From a virus, in the IMG/VR virus record IMGVR_UViG_3300050343_000176, positions 1-27,375 of that record: a DNA stretch of 27,375 nucleotides; one strand, given 5' to 3'. The translations under genes were made by a program, and so were the position numbers. Positions 4,954-26,957 of the stretch are shown here, piece after piece. The notes beneath the pieces were generated by a model. It did not search any database. It worked only from the letters and a program-made list of their open reading frames with translations, and was not told the DNA's origin. The number at the start of each line of letters is the position of its first letter. The first letter of the stretch is position 1.

Positions 4954-5115
4954 ATGAGCATTACAGATTTGAAAATATACACGTTAAATTTTAGTAGTCT
5001 AGCAATTAGCATGACAAACATAGACTTAATTTTAAAACTTACTCTTTTAGTAGTTACTATAGGATATACTATACATAAATGGTATTTAATGAGTAAAAAA
5101 AATAACGAAAAATGA
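4954..5115 (+). CDS. Small single-span membrane protein, 53 aa (holin-like)
   Basis: The ORF starts at ATG 4954, three bases after the fibre stop, and ends at TGA 5113-5115. One hydrophobic segment (about residues 24-41, LILKLTLLVVTIGYTI) is followed by a short, mostly Lys-containing tail. Size, topology and position just before the amidase suggest a holin, pinholin or antiholin. The next ORF starts inside its stop. Confidence 0.55.
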   Translation: MSITDLKIYTLNFSSLAISMTNIDLILKLTLLVVTIGYTIHKWYLMSKKNNEK

Positions 5116-5246
5116 AATACATTATTAAAGGCTTACGTTTTTTAGCAAACAAATTAGAAAATTTTAAATGCGCGGTGCATAGAAACTGGAATATGTTTTT
5201 AGAGAGCCTTAAAAGTAAATGCGTATGCGAAAAATTAACAAAATAA
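5112..5246 (+). CDS. Small basic protein, 44 aa, in lysis block
   Basis: The ATG at 5112 overlaps the preceding stop and the ORF ends at TAA 5244-5246, overlapping the amidase start by 28 bases. It is basic, with three Cys (20, 37, 39) and an amphipathic start. No family is recognised. Its tight coupling between a membrane protein and the amidase argues that it is translated. Confidence 0.4.
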   Translation: MKYIIKGLRFLANKLENFKCAVHRNWNMFLESLKSKCVCEKLTK

Positions 5247-5653
5247 TAGTACACTGTACGGCTACGCCAGAGGGTAGAGACGTAAGTATTGACGAAGTAA
5301 GACGCTGGCACGTGGACGGTAGAGGCTGGCGAGACATAGGCTACCATTTTTTGATCCAAAGAGACGGCACAGTAGAAGAGGGGCGGCCAATAGAACAAAC
5401 AGGCGCACACGTAAAAGGCGAAAACTGGGACAGCATAGGCGTAGCGTATGTAGGCGGCATGTCTAGCTACGGCGAACAAAGCGAGCCAAAGGACACTAGG
5501 ACAGACGAACAAAAAGACGCTCTAATAGAGTTACTTTGCCAATTAAAAGACACTTACGGCGGCTATATATACGGACATAATAATTTTAGTAATAAGGCTT
5601 GCCCCTGTTTTGACGCAAAAACTGAATACGAAAATATAAGCAATAGATATTAA
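5219..5653 (+). CDS. Endolysin: N-acetylmuramoyl-L-alanine amidase (T7 lysozyme type)
   Basis: A 144-residue zinc amidase that should cut the bond between MurNAc and the stem peptide to lyse the host. Its length is close to T7 lysozyme. The zinc ligands are in place: His12 in IIVHCTAT, His120 in YGHNNF and Cys128 in KACPCFDA. The catalytic Tyr (Tyr42 in DIGYHFLI) and Lys (Lys126) match T7 Tyr46 and Lys128. There is no signal peptide or wall-binding domain, so export must depend on a holin, and holin-like genes flank it. An alternative ATG two codons in gives nearly the same protein. In T7 this protein also inhibits RNA polymerase, but no phage polymerase is seen here. Confidence 0.93.
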   Translation: MRMRKINKIIVHCTATPEGRDVSIDEVRRWHVDGRGWRDIGYHFLIQRDGTVEEGRPIEQTGAHVKGENWDSIGVAYVGGMSSYGEQSEPKDTRTDEQKDALIELLCQLKDTYGGYIYGHNNFSNKACPCFDAKTEYENISNRY

Positions 5654-5803
5654 ATGTTTTTTAGTGTAATATTATTGTTTCCTAGTAGTTTTATAGTAGG
5701 TTTAAATTACTACCCAGCTGACGAAACGACAGACTTAAACGAAATAAACATATACTTATTTATAATACAATTAAAATTAGCCTGGTATGAAAAAAATATT
5801 TAA
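5654..5803 (+). CDS. Small hydrophobic protein, 49 aa
   Basis: The ATG follows the amidase stop directly, and the ORF ends at TAA 5801-5803 inside the start of the holin gene. It has two hydrophobic stretches (residues 2-18 and 31-43) around a polar middle with Asp/Glu. Short ORFs of this pattern (a YY-x-x-D middle and an ending like IQLKLAWY) recur in flavophage lysis regions in my recollection. A membrane-associated lysis accessory role is inferred from context. Confidence 0.5.
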   Translation: MFFSVILLFPSSFIVGLNYYPADETTDLNEINIYLFIIQLKLAWYEKNI

Positions 5804-6182
5804 TTGGTTTAGTAAAGGCGTAATAGGAGAAATAGGCAAAGTAATAGACGACTTATTTACTAGCGACGAAGAGCGTATACACGCTAAAAACGAAATACTT
5901 AAGGTACTTAAACAACAGCAATTAGAGTTACAAAAATTACAGACTGAAATTATAGTAGCAGAGGCTAACGGTAATTGGCTACAACGCAGCTGGCGCCCTA
6001 TCTTAATGCTAGCTTTTGGCTTTATAGTTATTTACGTAAAATTTTTAGCACCTTTATTTAACTTCACTATACCGCCTTTAGAAAACGAGTTTTGGAATTT
6101 ATTACAAATAGGTATAGGCGGCTATGTAATAGGCCGTACAGGCGAGAAAATAGCAAAAGAATACGCTAGTACCAAAAAGTAG
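5787..6182 (+). CDS. Holin (3TM / GTA-type family)
   Basis: A 131-residue membrane protein that probably permeabilises the inner membrane so the amidase can reach the wall. A cytoplasmic amphipathic region with a predicted coil (residues 28-58) leads into NGNWLQRSWRPILML (61-75). The W-L-x-x-x-W-R-P pattern is typical of the GTA/HP1-like 3TM holin family. Hydrophobic spans lie at about 71-90 and 102-116, and the end is charged. It overlaps the preceding ORF by 17 bases. It is the last gene of the late unit before the repeats and terminator at 6186-6350. Confidence 0.8.
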   Translation: MKKIFNWFSKGVIGEIGKVIDDLFTSDEERIHAKNEILKVLKQQQLELQKLQTEIIVAEANGNWLQRSWRPILMLAFGFIVIYVKFLAPLFNFTIPPLENEFWNLLQIGIGGYVIGRTGEKIAKEYASTKK

Positions 6183-20732: not shown

Positions 20733-20882
20733 ATGTTAAATTTAATACTAGAAATGCTAAACCAGGCAAACGGCGAGACTGAAAATATACGTATCGCGCA
20801 AGGCAAAAACAAACTACCTAAAACCCTAAAAGACGGATATAAAAAACTTAAAAAGCAAAGTAAATGGGTATTGAAAAAATAG
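20733..20882 (+). CDS. Small basic protein, 49 aa
   Basis: ATG directly after the preceding stop, TAG 20880-20882, overlapping the tape measure start by 19 bases. N-terminal hydrophobic helix and a Lys-rich C terminus. Position just ahead of the tape measure suggests a minor tail role. No family is recognised. Confidence 0.45.
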   Translation: MLNLILEMLNQANGETENIRIAQGKNKLPKTLKDGYKKLKKQSKWVLKK

Positions 20883-22525
20883 GGGTACAGTTTGAAGTAA
20901 ACGGCAAAGAGGCTGTAAAACAAATTAAAGATACCGCAAAAGCTCTAGACAACTTTAATAGCGAGCTAGAAAAAAACCGCGAAGGCATGCAGATACTGGA
21001 CCAGCTGACAGGCGGCGCAGTATCGCAATTTCAAGACTATAAAAATAGTGTAAAAGGTGGCATAGGTGCTATAAAAAGTTTAAGTAAAAGTTTTAAAGGC
21101 TTAAAGGCTGCAATAATATCTACAGGTATAGGCGCTATTGTAGTAGCTTTAGGTTTAATTGTAGCGTACTGGGACGATATAAAAGAGCTAGTAAGCGGCG
21201 TAAGCAAAGAGCAAGAAGACCTACTCGAATTACAGCAGCAGAGCGTAGCACAAAGCCAGGCGGCTAGCGACGCAATAAGCGCAACGTCAAATACTTTAAA
21301 ATTACAGGGCAAAAGTGAACGCGACATACTTAATTTAAAAAAGGCCCAAACCGACGAAACTATAGCAGCTTTAGAGGCTCAACTTATTACACAAAAAGAA
21401 ATTAAAAAAGCGCAAGTAGAGAGCGCAGAGCGAAACCAAAATATAGCAAAAGGTATTATAGCGTTTTTGTCCGCGCCTTTATTAATTATTACAGGCCTTA
21501 TAGACGGTATTACAAACAGTTTAGCAAGTTTAGGTATAATTGAAGAGGCTACAAGTTTGACCGAAGACTACCTAGAGACTACGTCGTCATTATTATTTGA
21601 CCCAGAGGCAGTAGCTGGCGCAGCAGACGAAACAATAAAAGAAACAGAAAACCAATTAACTAAGCTAAAAAACACTAGAGACGGTTATATACTACAGCAA
21701 CAGGCCCAGGATCAAAAAACCGCAGACGACGAGCTACAAAAGAAAAAAGACGCAAACCAAAAGCTACTAGACGAAGAAGAGGCATTTCAAAAAAAGCTAG
21801 CAGACATAAAACAAAAAGACTTTCAAGACCAGCTTACAATGATGCAGCGTATTGAAGACGCAGAAAACGCATATTTTGACAGTAAACTATCAAAAGAGCA
21901 GCTAGAAGAAAACGCAGTAAGAGAAAAATATTTTGCGCTTATTCAAGCGGCAGACCAGTACGGCCTTTCTACGGTAGACCTAGAGGCGGCCCAAACTGAA
22001 GAGTTACAAGCAATAAAAGACGAGTCAGCAGCTAGAGACGAGGCTAGAGAAGAGGCGCTAAAAAAGCAAAGACTGTCGGCAGTAGGCGACACTTTCGGCC
22101 AAATAGCTGGTATTTTAGGTAAAAATAGCGCAGCTGGTAAGGCGGCAGCTATAGCACAGGCGACAATTAATACCTACCAGGGGGTTAGTGAAATTTGGGG
22201 CAACAAGTCTACGTTACCGTCGCCTTTTGACGTAATACAAAAAGGGGTAGCAAGTATAGCGGTTTTACAAAGCGGTTTACAAACTGTAAAACAAATTAAG
22301 TCGGTACCAAAACCAAAAGGCGTTAAGGGCGGCGGCAGCTCTGGTGGTGGTAGCGTAGGGCAAAGCGCGCCAGCCTTTAATTTAATAGGCGGCACAGGTA
22401 CAAACCAATTAGCCGAAACAATAGCAGAGCAAACAAATAAACCGTCTAGGTCGTACGTAGTAGCTGGCGACGTTACAACGGCCCAAGAATTAGAACGTAA
22501 TACGGTAGAGGGCGCGGCGCTTTAA
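20864..22525 (+). CDS. Tail tape measure protein
   Basis: A 553-residue protein with helical coil at 1-60, two hydrophobic spans (about 82-103 and 195-215), long Gln/Ala/Glu coiled-coil (250-400), and a Gly/Ser hinge (KGGGSSGGGS, about 490). It ends in SYVVAGDVTTAQELERN, a C-terminal motif I recognise from flavophage tape measures. It sets tail length and may enter the host membrane during injection. By the usual rise of about 1.5 angstrom per residue it predicts a tail near 80 nm, short for a siphovirus. It follows the chaperone pair as expected. Confidence 0.82.
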   Translation: MGIEKIGVQFEVNGKEAVKQIKDTAKALDNFNSELEKNREGMQILDQLTGGAVSQFQDYKNSVKGGIGAIKSLSKSFKGLKAAIISTGIGAIVVALGLIVAYWDDIKELVSGVSKEQEDLLELQQQSVAQSQAASDAISATSNTLKLQGKSERDILNLKKAQTDETIAALEAQLITQKEIKKAQVESAERNQNIAKGIIAFLSAPLLIITGLIDGITNSLASLGIIEEATSLTEDYLETTSSLLFDPEAVAGAADETIKETENQLTKLKNTRDGYILQQQAQDQKTADDELQKKKDANQKLLDEEEAFQKKLADIKQKDFQDQLTMMQRIEDAENAYFDSKLSKEQLEENAVREKYFALIQAADQYGLSTVDLEAAQTEELQAIKDESAARDEAREEALKKQRLSAVGDTFGQIAGILGKNSAAGKAAAIAQATINTYQGVSEIWGNKSTLPSPFDVIQKGVASIAVLQSGLQTVKQIKSVPKPKGVKGGGSSGGGSVGQSAPAFNLIGGTGTNQLAETIAEQTNKPSRSYVVAGDVTTAQELERNTVEGAAL

Positions 22526-22558: not shown

Positions 22559-23494
22559 ATGAAAATTATAGAGTTAATTATTGACGAAAACGACGAATAC
22601 AGCGGCGTAGATGCTATAAGTTTAGTAGAGTACCCAGCCATTGAAGAAAACTGGGTAGCGCTAAACAAAAACGACAGAGAGTATAAATTTAAAGCTGTAG
22701 ACGACGACAAGCGTATTTTAATGGGCGCGCTTTTAGTACCTAATAAAATGATATATCGCAAAGACGGCGACGAAGAGTATTACATACACTTTACAAAAGC
22801 TACGGTAAAAAAGGCTAGCGAGCTTTATTTGCAAAGAGGCAACGCAAACAACGCGACATACGAGCATATAAAAGAAGTAGAGGGCGTTTCGTTAGTCGAA
22901 AGCTGGATAGTCGAAGACAAAGAAAACGACAAAAGTAATTTATACGACCTAGACTTGCCAGTCGGCACCTGGGTAGGCGCAGTAAAAGTATATAACGAGC
23001 AGCTCTGGCAAATGGCAAAGGTAGACGGATCAATTCGCGGTTTTAGTATCGAGGGGTTTTTTGCTGAAAAAGCACAAAGGCCAAAAGAGCCAATAGCCGA
23101 AGACTTAAGCAGAGAGCTAAACGCCGCCTTTAAACTACTTAAAATTAAACAGTCGCTAATTGAAATGTCGGCTAAAAAAAAAATTGATTTAGACAGCTAC
23201 AATGACTACCCCCAAGGCGCAGTAAATAACGCTAAACGCGCTTTAGACTGGGTAGAAAAAAACGGCTGGGGCAGCTGCGGCGAGGCTACAGGCAAAAAAA
23301 GAGCTAGCCAAATTGCAAACAAAGAAAAATTAACACGCGACACAATAGCACGCATGGCAAGTTTTAAAAGACATCAACAGCACAAAGACGTACCCTACAG
23401 CGAGGGGTGCGGCGGTTTAATGTGGGACGCCTGGGGCGGTAGCGCTGGCATAAACTGGGCCATAAACAAACTAAAAGAATTAGACAATGAATAA
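22559..23494 (+). CDS. Prohead protease, XkdF-like, with C-terminal domain
   Basis: A 311-residue protein. Residues 1-170 match the XkdF/S78_2 type of head maturation protease: LIIDENDEYSGVDAISLVEYPAIEENW at the start region, HFTKATVKKASELYL, a candidate catalytic His103 in TYEHIKE, SWIVED, and GSIRGFSIEGFF with candidate nucleophile Ser163. After a helical linker, residues 210-311 form a second domain (SYNDYPQGAVNNAKRALDW, CGEATGKKRASQIANKE, GGLMWDAWGGSAG) that I know only as a conserved flavophage module. The protease would cleave scaffold and tagged internal proteins in the procapsid. It opens the head module. Confidence 0.78.
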   Translation: MKIIELIIDENDEYSGVDAISLVEYPAIEENWVALNKNDREYKFKAVDDDKRILMGALLVPNKMIYRKDGDEEYYIHFTKATVKKASELYLQRGNANNATYEHIKEVEGVSLVESWIVEDKENDKSNLYDLDLPVGTWVGAVKVYNEQLWQMAKVDGSIRGFSIEGFFAEKAQRPKEPIAEDLSRELNAAFKLLKIKQSLIEMSAKKKIDLDSYNDYPQGAVNNAKRALDWVEKNGWGSCGEATGKKRASQIANKEKLTRDTIARMASFKRHQQHKDVPYSEGCGGLMWDAWGGSAGINWAINKLKELDNE

Positions 23495-23666
23495 AAGACG
23501 CAGACGAAATAGGGGCCTATACGGCATAGACAATACAAACAACGCGTCGCCAACTGGCGGCAGTAGGGCCTGTCTTTGTAAAGACGAGCAAACCTATAGT
23601 ATTGACTGTTGCGACGGCTCACTATGGGCGCAAGGTATAGGACGTATAACAGCAATAGACGAATAA
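23487..23666 (+). CDS. Small Cys-rich protein, 59 aa
   Basis: ATG 23487 inside the protease stop, TAA 23664-23666. Basic Arg-rich start, then RACLCKDEQTYSIDCCDGS and WAQGIG. The C-L-C ... Y-S-x-x-C-C-D-G ... A-Q-G-I-G pattern is one I have seen in flavophage ORFs beside head genes. Four Cys in this spacing could bind a metal or form disulfides. Its role is unknown. The next gene begins directly after its stop. Confidence 0.6.
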   Translation: MNKRRRRNRGLYGIDNTNNASPTGGSRACLCKDEQTYSIDCCDGSLWAQGIGRITAIDE

Positions 23667-23935: not shown

Positions 23936-24391
23936 ATGAGTACAGAAAATAGAGTATTTAACAAGCTATTCAAAGGCAAAACTAACTTGTCTAAAAAAAT
24001 AGCTTTAGGAACGCTAAAAGAAGACATAGACTTTTATATTGAGTATATAAACGAGCCAAAAAACAAAGCTGAACAAATTGTTTCGGACTTTGAAAGGCTG
24101 GGCGGCGAAATGCAAAGAATTTTAAGCGAAATACAGACACTTGTACCAGAGGCTAAAACTACTTTAGAGCTAGGCTATCGTTATACCGAAGAGGTAGACG
24201 AATTAATTGAGCGTACAAGACAAAGCGCGGACGAGCTGGGAATTGATCCAGCCGACATAGGTAATTTTACAGAGTTAGAGGCAATAGCAAAAGTAGACTT
24301 TTATTACTTTAAATATATCGAGGACGCCTGGTGGGAGAATATAAATTATTACACGTCTGAATTAAAGGACAGCGAAGACTTATTTAAATAA
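23936..24391 (+). CDS. Tagged acidic helical protein 1 (putative internal capsid protein)
   Basis: A 151-residue acidic, helical protein. The extreme N terminus reads ENRVFNKLFK (residues 4-13), nearly the same as the C terminus of the scaffold-like protein at 25339. KKIALG follows at 20-25. The C-terminal part has DELGIDPADIGNF (99-111), shared with the next two genes. I infer a family of procapsid-loaded proteins: the tag would bind the inner shell or scaffold and might be removed by the XkdF-like protease. Function after loading (ejection, DNA condensation, decoy) is unknown. Confidence 0.6.
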   Translation: MSTENRVFNKLFKGKTNLSKKIALGTLKEDIDFYIEYINEPKNKAEQIVSDFERLGGEMQRILSEIQTLVPEAKTTLELGYRYTEEVDELIERTRQSADELGIDPADIGNFTELEAIAKVDFYYFKYIEDAWWENINYYTSELKDSEDLFK

Positions 24392-24397
24392 AAAACT

Positions 24398-24859
24398 ATG
24401 ACTACAAAAAACAGAGTATTTAGCAGACTGTTTGACGACAAAAAACACGCTGCGCAATTAAGAGCTGAAAAACGCAAAGAAGACAAACTAAAAAAAGTAG
24501 CTTTAGGTCTAGTAGACGAGTTTAATTACGAATACCAATATTTACAAGACGAAATAGGGCGTTTGTCTTATTCGGTAGAAGAATGGTTTGACGAAAAATT
24601 TGACGAGTTTTACCAATTACGTAGCGACTTACGCTCTGTATATTTACAAAACAGCGAGGCTTTTATTACTACAGCCGACGTAGCTGGCGACTTAGAAATA
24701 CTAAACCAAATAAAAGACAAAGCAGAAGAGCTGGGGTTAAGTGCAGAAGACGTATACCCAGACTGGCAAGTACATTTTGACGACTTAGAATATTTAGACC
24801 AACTAGATAGTAAATTTGACGACCAAGTAGCCGAATTACGCTCTATAGGCCTAGAATAA
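24398..24859 (+). CDS. Tagged acidic helical protein 2 (paralog)
   Basis: A 153-residue protein, six bases after its paralog. N terminus KNRVFSRLF (4-12) carries the tag. KKVALG (32-37) and ELGLSAEDVYPDW (111-123) align with protein 1 and protein 3. The insert between tag and KKVALG is longer and basic (residues 14-31). The rest is acidic and helical. The same role as protein 1 is inferred. The pair look like an old duplication, because the sequences differ outside the motifs. Confidence 0.6.
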   Translation: MTTKNRVFSRLFDDKKHAAQLRAEKRKEDKLKKVALGLVDEFNYEYQYLQDEIGRLSYSVEEWFDEKFDEFYQLRSDLRSVYLQNSEAFITTADVAGDLEILNQIKDKAEELGLSAEDVYPDWQVHFDDLEYLDQLDSKFDDQVAELRSIGLE

Positions 24860-24870
24860 AAACATAAACT

Positions 24871-25311
24871 ATGAATACAAACAAAACTGTATTGTCTATT
24901 TTAGACAAATTTAAACCAGCAAAAGCCGCAGTAAAACTGTCGGCTATTAGCGACATTGAAGACAACCTTGACCGTTTTGAGTATGCCGAAAGCGACGCAA
25001 GCTATTTAGCTTACGAATGGGGCGATCAAATAATGGACGAGTACAACGAATTTAAAATGCGTTATAACTTAGACGACTTTATTGTAAACGGTAATACTAG
25101 AGACCTAGAAGAGGTAGCAGAAATTATGCGTAACGCACTAAACGACCTAGAGGCAAAAAGCGAAGAGCTGGGAATTGACCCCAGCGACGTATACGCAGAC
25201 TACGAAGACCTAAAAGCTAGAGTAGACAACGCAGACGTTTTATTTGAAGATGCTAAAAGAAAATATTACGAAGTAGTGCCATACGTTGGTTATGCTGACT
25301 TTTGGAGATAA
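24871..25311 (+). CDS. Acidic helical protein 3 (paralog, degenerate tag)
   Basis: A 146-residue protein whose ELGIDPSDVYADYEDL (99-114) clearly matches proteins 1 and 2. The N terminus is MNTNKTVLSILDKF, which keeps V7, L8 and L11 of the tag pattern but lacks R-V-F. It may target the capsid weakly, bind a sibling, or have lost the tag. It is followed 27 bases later by the scaffold-like gene. Confidence 0.55.
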   Translation: MNTNKTVLSILDKFKPAKAAVKLSAISDIEDNLDRFEYAESDASYLAYEWGDQIMDEYNEFKMRYNLDDFIVNGNTRDLEEVAEIMRNALNDLEAKSEELGIDPSDVYADYEDLKARVDNADVLFEDAKRKYYEVVPYVGYADFWR

Positions 25312-25338: not shown

Positions 25339-25935
25339 ATGAAAGCAACAGAAATGTTATCGCAAATTAAAACTTTGCTACGTGCTAGAATAGGTTTAGC
25401 ACAAATGACGCTAGAAGACGGCGAAACAGTTATCGAAGCAGACGCTTTAGAGGCTGGGCAAGCTGTTTTTATAGTATCTGACGACGAGCGTATCGCTTTG
25501 CCAGTAGGCGAGTATACGACAGCTGACGGCCAAATTGTAGTAGTAGCCGAAGAGGGTACTATCGCAGAGGTTAAGGACGCTATGGAAGTCGAAAAAATGG
25601 AAGACGACGAAGACGAAGAGAAAAAAGAAGAGCTAGAAGAGGTAGTCGTCGAAGACGTGCCAGAGATAGCAGCCGAAGAGGTAGCAGCTATTGTAGAGGC
25701 AGTAGTCGAAGTAGTGGCGCCAGTTTTAGAAGAGGTTAAAGAGCAAGTAGAAGAGCTTTACAAAAAGTTTGAAGACCAAGAAGACAAAAAAGAAAAAATG
25801 TCTAGTCAAAAACCAGCTCGCAAGCCAATGAAACATAACCCAGAGGCAAAACAAACAGTAAAACAAAACTTATACAGTCAAGGTGCAAATTTCAATACAA
25901 CCAAAGACAGAGTATTTAGTAAACTATTTAAATAA
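25339..25935 (+). CDS. Scaffold-like protein with C-terminal capsid tag
   Basis: A 198-residue protein directly upstream of the major capsid gene, the usual scaffold slot. The N-terminal 85 residues are a small beta domain (GETVIEADALEAGQAVF, PVGEYTTADGQIVVV). Residues 85-155 are extremely acidic and helical (runs of D/E/K), and then a basic linker follows. It ends TTKDRVFSKLFK (187-198). A C-terminal capsid-binding helix is a known feature of scaffolds in other phages such as P22. Finding the same peptide at the N terminus of the two tagged paralogs supports a docking role. Confidence 0.65.
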   Translation: MKATEMLSQIKTLLRARIGLAQMTLEDGETVIEADALEAGQAVFIVSDDERIALPVGEYTTADGQIVVVAEEGTIAEVKDAMEVEKMEDDEDEEKKEELEEVVVEDVPEIAAEEVAAIVEAVVEVVAPVLEEVKEQVEELYKKFEDQEDKKEKMSSQKPARKPMKHNPEAKQTVKQNLYSQGANFNTTKDRVFSKLFK

Positions 25936-25964: not shown

Positions 25965-26957
25965 ATGAGAAAAACACACTTACGTACAATTACAGGTAAT
26001 GGGTCAGTAGATAGCATCACAACTAGCTACGAGGGGCAATACCTAGGCGAAATGATATCTGCAGCTTTATTGTCTGGGGACACTATCGACAAAGGCGGTA
26101 TTACCGTAAAACCAAATGTAAAATACAAAGAAGTAATTAAAAAATTGTCTTCTACAGGTATTGTAGGCGACGCAACTTGCGGATTTACAGTTACAGCGGA
26201 TCAAATTACGCTAGAAGAGCGAATTTTAGAAATTAAGCCTTTCCAAGTAAATTTAGAAATTTGCAAAAAAGACTTTTTAAGCGACTATTTAGCTTTAGAA
26301 ATGGGCAACAGCGCATACAAAAATTTGCCGTCTTCTTTTGCTGACTTTATTATGGCACACGTAGCAGCCAAAGTAGCAGAGAAAACAGAGCAAAATATCT
26401 GGGGCGGTTTAGGTGCAAACCCTGGCGAGTTTACAGGTATTACAGTAGAGGCTTTAGCTGACGGTAACGTAAACGACGTACCAGGCGTAACGGCTACAGC
26501 TTTTACAGCTGCAAATATTGTAGAAGAGCTAGGCAAAGTAGTAGACGCTATACCAGCAGCAGTTTATGGTAAAGAAGACCTACACTTATATTTACCAACT
26601 GGCGCGTTTCAAAAATACGTTAGAAGTTTAGGCGGTTTCGGTGCAGTAGCTGGTAACGGCGGCGGCGCTAACGGCGTAGACAATAGAGGCTCACTTTGGT
26701 ACGATAACGGCGGCTTAACTTTTGAGGGAATTAAAGTATTTAAGGCCCCAGGTATGCCAGCAGACCATATTGTAGCGGCTGAAAAATCAAACTTATTCTT
26801 TGGTACAGCTTTGCTAGACGACATGGGACAGACAAGTGCTAAATTGCTAGACATGGCAGACCTTGACGGCTCGGACAATGTCAGAGTAGTGCTACGCTTT
26901 CAAGCTGGCGTAAATTATGGAGTATCGCAAGATTTGACGCTCTATACTTTAGCATAA
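25965..26957 (+). CDS. Major capsid protein
   Basis: A 330-residue protein with an HK97-like capsid layout: a short N-terminal arm, EYEGQYLGE-like start at SYEGQYLGEMISAAL (21-35), a long helix and beta region with FADFIMAHVAAKVAEKTEQNIW (about 125-146), and a C-terminal half with GIKVFKAPGMPADHIVAAEKSNLFFG, the typical P-domain/A-domain strand ahead of the receptor-like D region. It is the last gene before a strong terminator and follows the scaffold-like gene. I see no classic cleavage site by eye, and the pro-part may be short. Confidence 0.82.
   Translation: MRKTHLRTITGNGSVDSITTSYEGQYLGEMISAALLSGDTIDKGGITVKPNVKYKEVIKKLSSTGIVGDATCGFTVTADQITLEERILEIKPFQVNLEICKKDFLSDYLALEMGNSAYKNLPSSFADFIMAHVAAKVAEKTEQNIWGGLGANPGEFTGITVEALADGNVNDVPGVTATAFTAANIVEELGKVVDAIPAAVYGKEDLHLYLPTGAFQKYVRSLGGFGAVAGNGGGANGVDNRGSLWYDNGGLTFEGIKVFKAPGMPADHIVAAEKSNLFFGTALLDDMGQTSAKLLDMADLDGSDNVRVVLRFQAGVNYGVSQDLTLYTLA

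Follow-up and report, generated by a model that had tools for sequence, protein, structure and literature searches.

A scaffold C-terminal peptide recurs at the N-termini of exchangeable neighbouring proteins: a predicted capsid-docking tag in small marine Bacteroidetes phages

The C-terminal peptide of a scaffold-like protein encoded next to the major capsid protein (MCP) gene of a phage recurs at the N-termini of neighbouring proteins, and in related phages it stays constant while the protein bodies behind it are exchanged. We interpret the peptide as a docking tag: a predicted capsid-docking helix of the scaffold, copied at the N-termini of what we call cargo proteins, would recruit exchangeable internal proteins, and an XkdF-type prohead protease would probably remove the tag. 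We put the probability of this reading at about 0.6. The location of the tagged genes between the prohead protease and the scaffold and MCP genes was counted in its favour.

The genes concerned lie at the right end of a 27,375-base virus record that was analysed over its whole length (the window). All head genes listed here share one direction (arrows mark candidate protease sites):

20864-22525, + strand: tape-measure-like protein
22559-23494, + strand: XkdF-type (S78_2) prohead protease, long form with an extra C-terminal domain (Pfam PF14550, E 1e-12; upstream of cargo and scaffold in relatives)
23936-24391, + strand: cargo protein 1, putatively internal, tagged, 151 aa (tag ENRVFNKLFK at 23945-23974; PSSM score 28.7)
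24007/24008, + strand: candidate junction KIAL↓G of cargo 1, after residue 24
24398-24859, + strand: cargo protein 2, putatively internal, tagged, 153 aa (tag KNRVFSRLF at 24407-24433; PSSM score 24.3; paralog by profile, E 1e-50)
24505/24506, + strand: candidate junction KVAL↓G of cargo 2, after residue 36
24871-25311, + strand: cargo protein 3, putatively internal, tagged, 146 aa (divergent tag NKTVLSILDKF at 24880-24912; PSSM score 5.5, above 99% of controls)
24939/24940, + strand: candidate junction VKL↓S of cargo 3, after residue 23
25339-25935, + strand: scaffold-like protein, 198 aa (directly 5′ of the MCP gene in all relatives; phrog_24921, E 1.7e-6)
25867-25878, + strand: predicted candidate site NLY↓S just before the scaffold tag
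25897-25932, + strand: C-terminal tag of the scaffold, TTKDRVFSKLFK (consensus and conservation among 78 distinct scaffolds)
25965-26957, + strand: MCP, HK97 fold (phrog_11320, E 4e-33; AlphaFold2 model of a near-identical relative)

The AlphaFold2 model, made for a relative whose MCP is 99% identical, matched HK97-fold capsids (best E 3e-11). phrog_24921 is common to the scaffold, the protease and the C-terminal part of the P12024 protease-scaffold fusion; in Nonlabens phage P12024L the protease and scaffold form a single 349-aa ORF with the MCP gene directly after it. The C-terminal domain of the window's protease (23200-23494; DYPxxxxNNAKRALDWVEKNGWGSCG...) is optional, being missing in many close relatives. 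It matches ORFs of haloarchaeal tailed viruses and of Vibrio and Roseobacter phages at 33-50% identity, and would appear to be a mobile domain. Two small ORFs separate the protease from ORF 23936. A small ORF beside the protease (23487-23666) contains a cysteine-rich motif, SRACLCKDExTYSIDCCDGSLWAQGIGRI, that is conserved in several relatives.

The sequence-only reading had placed the same short peptide at the scaffold C-terminus and at the N-termini of its neighbours, and the translations agree. The scaffold ORF (25339-25935) ends in ...NFNTTKDRVFSKLFK, with the tag at 25900-25932 as that reading gave it, while ORFs 23936, 24398 and 24871 begin with MSTENRVFNKLFKGK / MSTENRVFNKLFK, MTTKNRVFSRLFDDKK / MTTKNRVFSRLF and MNTNKTVLSILDKFK / MNTNKTVLSILDKF, respectively. 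An 11-column profile was built from only 27 distinct scaffold C-terminal 11-mers and scored on the N-termini of ORFs from 121 loci. Within the window the three ORFs reached 28.7, 24.3 and 5.5, with 4.0 for the best of the remaining ORFs. The median score of 113 ORFs located between protease and scaffold, about nine of them unrelated, was 10.8, compared with a mean of –7.6, a 99th percentile of 3.4 and a maximum of 7.6 for 547 control ORFs scored with the same profile. Of the 113, sixty scored higher than any control (Mann-Whitney P-value 4e-53, for sequences that are related and not independent). A chance match was rejected, as the scaffold-tail profile picks out these ORFs against the 547 controls. 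The cargo tags of L097, L100 and L124 and the second tag of L141 are weak by this profile.

The shared peptide is confined to scaffold C-termini and cargo N-termini. Between the scaffold and cargo copies of the tag we counted 71 synonymous codon differences in 60 pairs, which indicates conservation at the protein level and led us to reject a recent copy by gene conversion. An origin of the cargo tags from the scaffold N-terminal helix was likewise rejected, with 14 of 102 cargo N-termini matching that helix versus 75 of 102 matching the C-terminal tag profile. The description of the three neighbours as paralogs was borne out by profile searches (E 8e-60, 1e-50 and 2e-10), the first ORF being only distantly related. 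The third tag, which had been called degenerate, is indeed divergent but not merely degenerate: M-NTNK-T-V-L-S-I-x-D-K-x-K is itself conserved in many relatives.

Scans of viral contigs and bacterial genomes yielded relatives at about 26-99% identity in the MCP, with 78 distinct scaffolds among them. The carriers of the tag are a group of small marine Bacteroidetes phages with genome records of 27-37 kb. In a phage collection the window DNA and the scaffold protein had no match, and the MCP and protease matched distant relatives only. A search of related phages for the terminal peptide near capsid genes, proposed earlier as a check, found it in many distinct loci. In many lineages the interval from protease to scaffold contains two to four tagged ORFs; one tagged ORF is located after a portal-like gene in L126, and one behind the gene that follows the MCP gene in L142. 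Three loci that came to light once the pattern was already defined, namely L141 (an independently found Bacteroidetes MAG), L142 and L143, contain tagged ORFs and the scaffold tail on the same plan. Among the relatives compared, tagged ORFs were absent from clade B (L036-L078) and from the P12024 group. When the cargo profile was run on whole records, its positions 2-30 matched the scaffold C-terminus of L055, a clade B phage without cargo (E 0.004). Scaffold and cargo tags are more alike within than between lineages (13 lineages, permutation P-value 0.003), and this matching may come partly from common descent.

Scaffold and MCP relatives were also seen in a chromosome labelled Woesearchaeota (L139; CP070803.1, Woesearchaeota MAG), behind a 2001-aa ORF; the likely explanation is a chimeric assembly or what remains of a provirus. 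The record behind L091 (28,787 bases) has cargo ORFs at both contig ends, which suggests a circular or circularly permuted genome.

The cargo proteins share one plan: a tag, a basic linker, a K-V-x-L↓[SGA] junction and an acidic helical body. The N-part, made up of tag and linker, is about 27 aa long with a mean net charge of +4.4, and the body about 119 aa with a mean net charge of –18.9. Across 102 such proteins a short conserved N-terminal peptide sits on otherwise divergent small proteins. The tag is constant while bodies are swapped precisely at the junction, and tag and body evolve independently. L117 and L119 agree at 21 of 21 tag residues, with bodies 20% identical; their DNA identity is 97-100% over the stretch that starts 150 bases upstream and runs as far as the junction, drops to about 50% within the body and returns to 97% past the stop codon. 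In L086 a slot-2 tag is joined to a body of the slot-3 type (95% identity to slot 3 of L002), and the switch again falls at the junction. Cargo 1 has a body 76% identical to a cargo body at L070:542, with tags only 42% identical. At L129, tandem cargo genes (5093-5473 and 5473-5922) have identical 26-residue N-parts (MKNNIEKVYGKLPKKKLGLKKHKIDL) and different bodies. Searches with the cargo bodies returned no convincing Pfam or PHROG family, and the PDB sequence matches were weak and coiled-coil-like. The AlphaFold2 model of cargo 3 is all-helical (pLDDT 89.7) and has no fold match in the PDB.

These bodies could also belong to accessory scaffold or core proteins resembling T4 gp67/gp68 or SaPI1 CpmB, which would use the same docking peptide, tune head size or assembly, and then be degraded or expelled. 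This is the strongest rival to the docking-tag reading because the middle of the scaffold (average net charge about –33) is also acidic and helical, like the acidic, all-helical cargo bodies. In addition, the tagged genes adjoin the scaffold gene, and CpmB has the capsid-docking C-terminus of the 80alpha scaffold and redirects capsid size. However, it would be unusual for assembly factors to come as two to four paralogs in one phage and to have whole bodies exchanged between phages that are otherwise near-identical; the tagged proteins are wholly absent in clade B and P12024 relatives; and they have a single conserved junction site, not many. We regard an accessory scaffold role as unlikely, though a serious contender.

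In the scaffold itself, an N-terminal helix is followed by an R-I-G-L↓A candidate site, a small domain, the acidic helical middle and the C-terminal tag. Nearly all of the 78 distinct scaffolds end in the consensus [DNE]RV[FLM]x[KNR]Lx, and the tag is the best conserved stretch of the protein (R 85%, V 93% and K 81%, against block means of 44-61% elsewhere). The tail is kept in phages without tagged ORFs, both in clade B and in the P12024 group (LAERLENLNK). Thus, it is primarily a scaffold element which was borrowed by other proteins, or those proteins have since been lost. The amphipathicity of the window's tag is moderate (muH 0.51, a value reached by 14% of shuffles). The scaffold resembles those of the P22/80alpha type in that its gene adjoins that of an HK97-fold MCP, its middle is acidic and helical, and its C-terminus is conserved, basic and amphipathic. 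By analogy with P22 and 80alpha, the C-terminal helix is predicted to be the capsid-docking element. In a read-through AlphaFold model of scaffold tail and MCP from relative L001, with the stop codon read as G, the MCP adopts the HK97 fold and the tag (residues 35-44) forms a helix of low confidence, with a pLDDT of about 57 versus 30-38 in most of the flanks.

A second shared helix was noticed at the other end of the scaffold. Its N-terminal helix (25339-25400; EMLSQIKTLL) is similar to the helix at the C-terminus of short XkdF-type proteases (QLLNQIKTII, KLLKIKQAL), and 12 of 18 short proteases, a set considered here that includes L127, L129, L086 and L143, score above 99% of control C-termini for likeness to it. 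Judged from these sequences, it may be a relic of a P12024-like protease-scaffold fusion or a second docking element. This helix suggests helix-helix contacts in the core, and T4 internal proteins are proposed to join the core via their capsid targeting sequence (CTS); both points speak for a reading in which the tag holds scaffold and cargo, or scaffold proteins among themselves, together in the core instead of docking to the capsid. Against it, the scaffold C-termini of P22 and 80alpha contact the capsid, and phages that have no cargo still keep the tail on their scaffolds. We consider core association improbable, with odds well below those of the accessory scaffolds.

Candidate protease sites adjoin the tag in both classes of protein. 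In the scaffold, [VINLMTHA]x[LFY][SGA] precedes the tag in 41 of 45 distinct tails, versus 7.4 expected by shuffling, for a pattern defined post hoc. The order is body-site-tag in the scaffold and tag-site-body in the cargo; by this post hoc reasoning, the tag would be cut off on the body side in both orientations. The V-x-L↓[S/G/A] junction motif recurs at the scaffold N-terminus (R-V-S-L↓A) and, as [V/I/N]-x-[F/Y/L]↓[S/G/A], ahead of the scaffold tag; the linker of the protease has a similar motif (K-I-D-L↓D), as do MCPs at their N-termini (K-V-N-L↓Y). The MCPs of many relatives start with K-V-N-L↓Y/S/T-like motifs and others directly at the conserved ITTTYAGEF (25965-26000 in the window), as if the same protease removed a short N-terminal peptide. 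In cargo bodies a depletion of sites looked strong on redundant data and is weak after clustering (19 versus 33, z –2.7), and in scaffold middles an enrichment apparent on redundant data is gone after removal of redundancy. The candidate site differs from the site of T4 gp21, and the K-V-x-L↓[SGA] junction is a candidate drawn from conservation. It is very improbable that the peptide serves the prohead protease solely for recognition or anchoring, or that it is left over from a duplication of the scaffold end, in either case with no targeting role: the tag does adjoin the candidate site in both protein classes, but the terminal helix and not the junction is most conserved in the scaffold, and the use of different codons for the same residues, together with the tag's persistence from lineage to lineage, points to selection acting on the peptide.

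The docking-tag reading can be put as a sequence of steps. The C-terminal peptide of the scaffold would be a capsid-docking helix, and its N-terminal copy would bring cargo into the procapsid, probably at the docking sites of the scaffold. The XkdF-type protease would then probably cut scaffold and cargo alike at V-x-[L/F/Y]↓[S/G/A] sites that lie on the tag's body side. Released by the protease, the acidic helical bodies would stay in the head and possibly be ejected with the DNA. The sequence-only reading had called the tag a portable address for the procapsid interior. Recurrence of the tag across loci and its constancy while bodies change uphold portability; capsid binding, presence in the virion and cleavage we infer. 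An anti-defence or DNA-mimic role of the bodies, suggested by their exchange and charge, is a guess. Taken as a whole, a natural loading system, in which the scaffold docking tail serves as a protease-removable N-terminal cassette tag for exchanged acidic proteins (possibly DNA mimics with an anti-defence role) delivered with the genome, is a tentative proposal to which we give somewhat less than even odds.

Several known systems resemble parts of this arrangement. T4 IPI, IPII, IPIII and Alt have a short N-terminal CTS, diverse bodies and processing by the gp21 protease (PMC3012670, PMC7411985), and the wholesale exchange of bodies among T-even internal proteins reflects defence and counter-defence (PMC3012670). 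The phages studied here likewise have a short N-terminal peptide on several small, diverse, putatively internal proteins, with predicted removal by a prohead protease. They differ from T4 in a protease that is XkdF/S78_2 by Pfam, a different candidate site, a tag that is the scaffold's own C-terminus, strongly acidic bodies and small genomes. In searches for homology to T4 internal proteins, Alt and gp21, the cargo gave no convincing Pfam or PHROG match and the protease was assigned to S78_2/XkdF. The 80alpha scaffold protein (SP) and SaPI1 CpmB dock to the capsid by a shared, swappable C-terminal amphipathic helix and hook (RIIK; PMC5644958). Here, too, a short motif is common to the scaffold and a second, putatively internal protein, with docking predicted, but the cargo motif is N-terminal and there is no RIIK motif; CpmB, moreover, is a satellite-encoded rival scaffold and not cargo.

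SPN3US gp53/gp54 and the inner-body paralogs of phiKZ are head proteins that are processed by protease and ejected; their first 15 residues are identical and their copy number varies (PMC5694885). They are alike in forming paralog families with a common N-terminus, and differ in having long propeptides and belonging to giant phages, with no match to a scaffold C-terminus reported there. The first 30 residues of P1 DarB are enough to send a reporter to the capsid (PMC9024508); DarB, however, is a single large protein, and P1 is without a known separate scaffold. In engineered P22 scaffold fusions the scaffold C-terminus anchors cargo (PMC9962691), but this loading is man-made and the peptide stays C-terminal. 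Encapsulin cargo-loading peptides are short terminal peptides that dock to an HK97-fold shell (PMC8229669); encapsulins work without a scaffold or prohead protease, whereas the window has scaffold, prohead protease and tape-measure ORFs. In the open-access literature we found no case of one peptide at a scaffold C-terminus and at cargo N-termini, nor of such an exchange of tag cassettes. The earlier claim that the system is not described thus holds, within that literature, for the exact arrangement; the claim goes too far if taken to mean unprecedented, given the CTSs of T4 and P1, SPN3US gp53/gp54 and 80alpha SP/CpmB. As each element has a precedent and the combination no report, we see a variant on a known theme.

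The binding partner of the capsid-targeting sequences of internal phage proteins is still poorly known in general. Since the tag copies the scaffold C-terminal peptide, the partner is hinted at by the sequence, and the question can be put to a test in a small phage with a single capsid protein, a single scaffold and a peptide of 10 residues. The tag could also be placed at the N-terminus of foreign proteins to bring them into HK97-fold shells. For the phages themselves, the swappable bodies amount to a ready list of candidate anti-host proteins that marine Bacteroidetes phages may inject.
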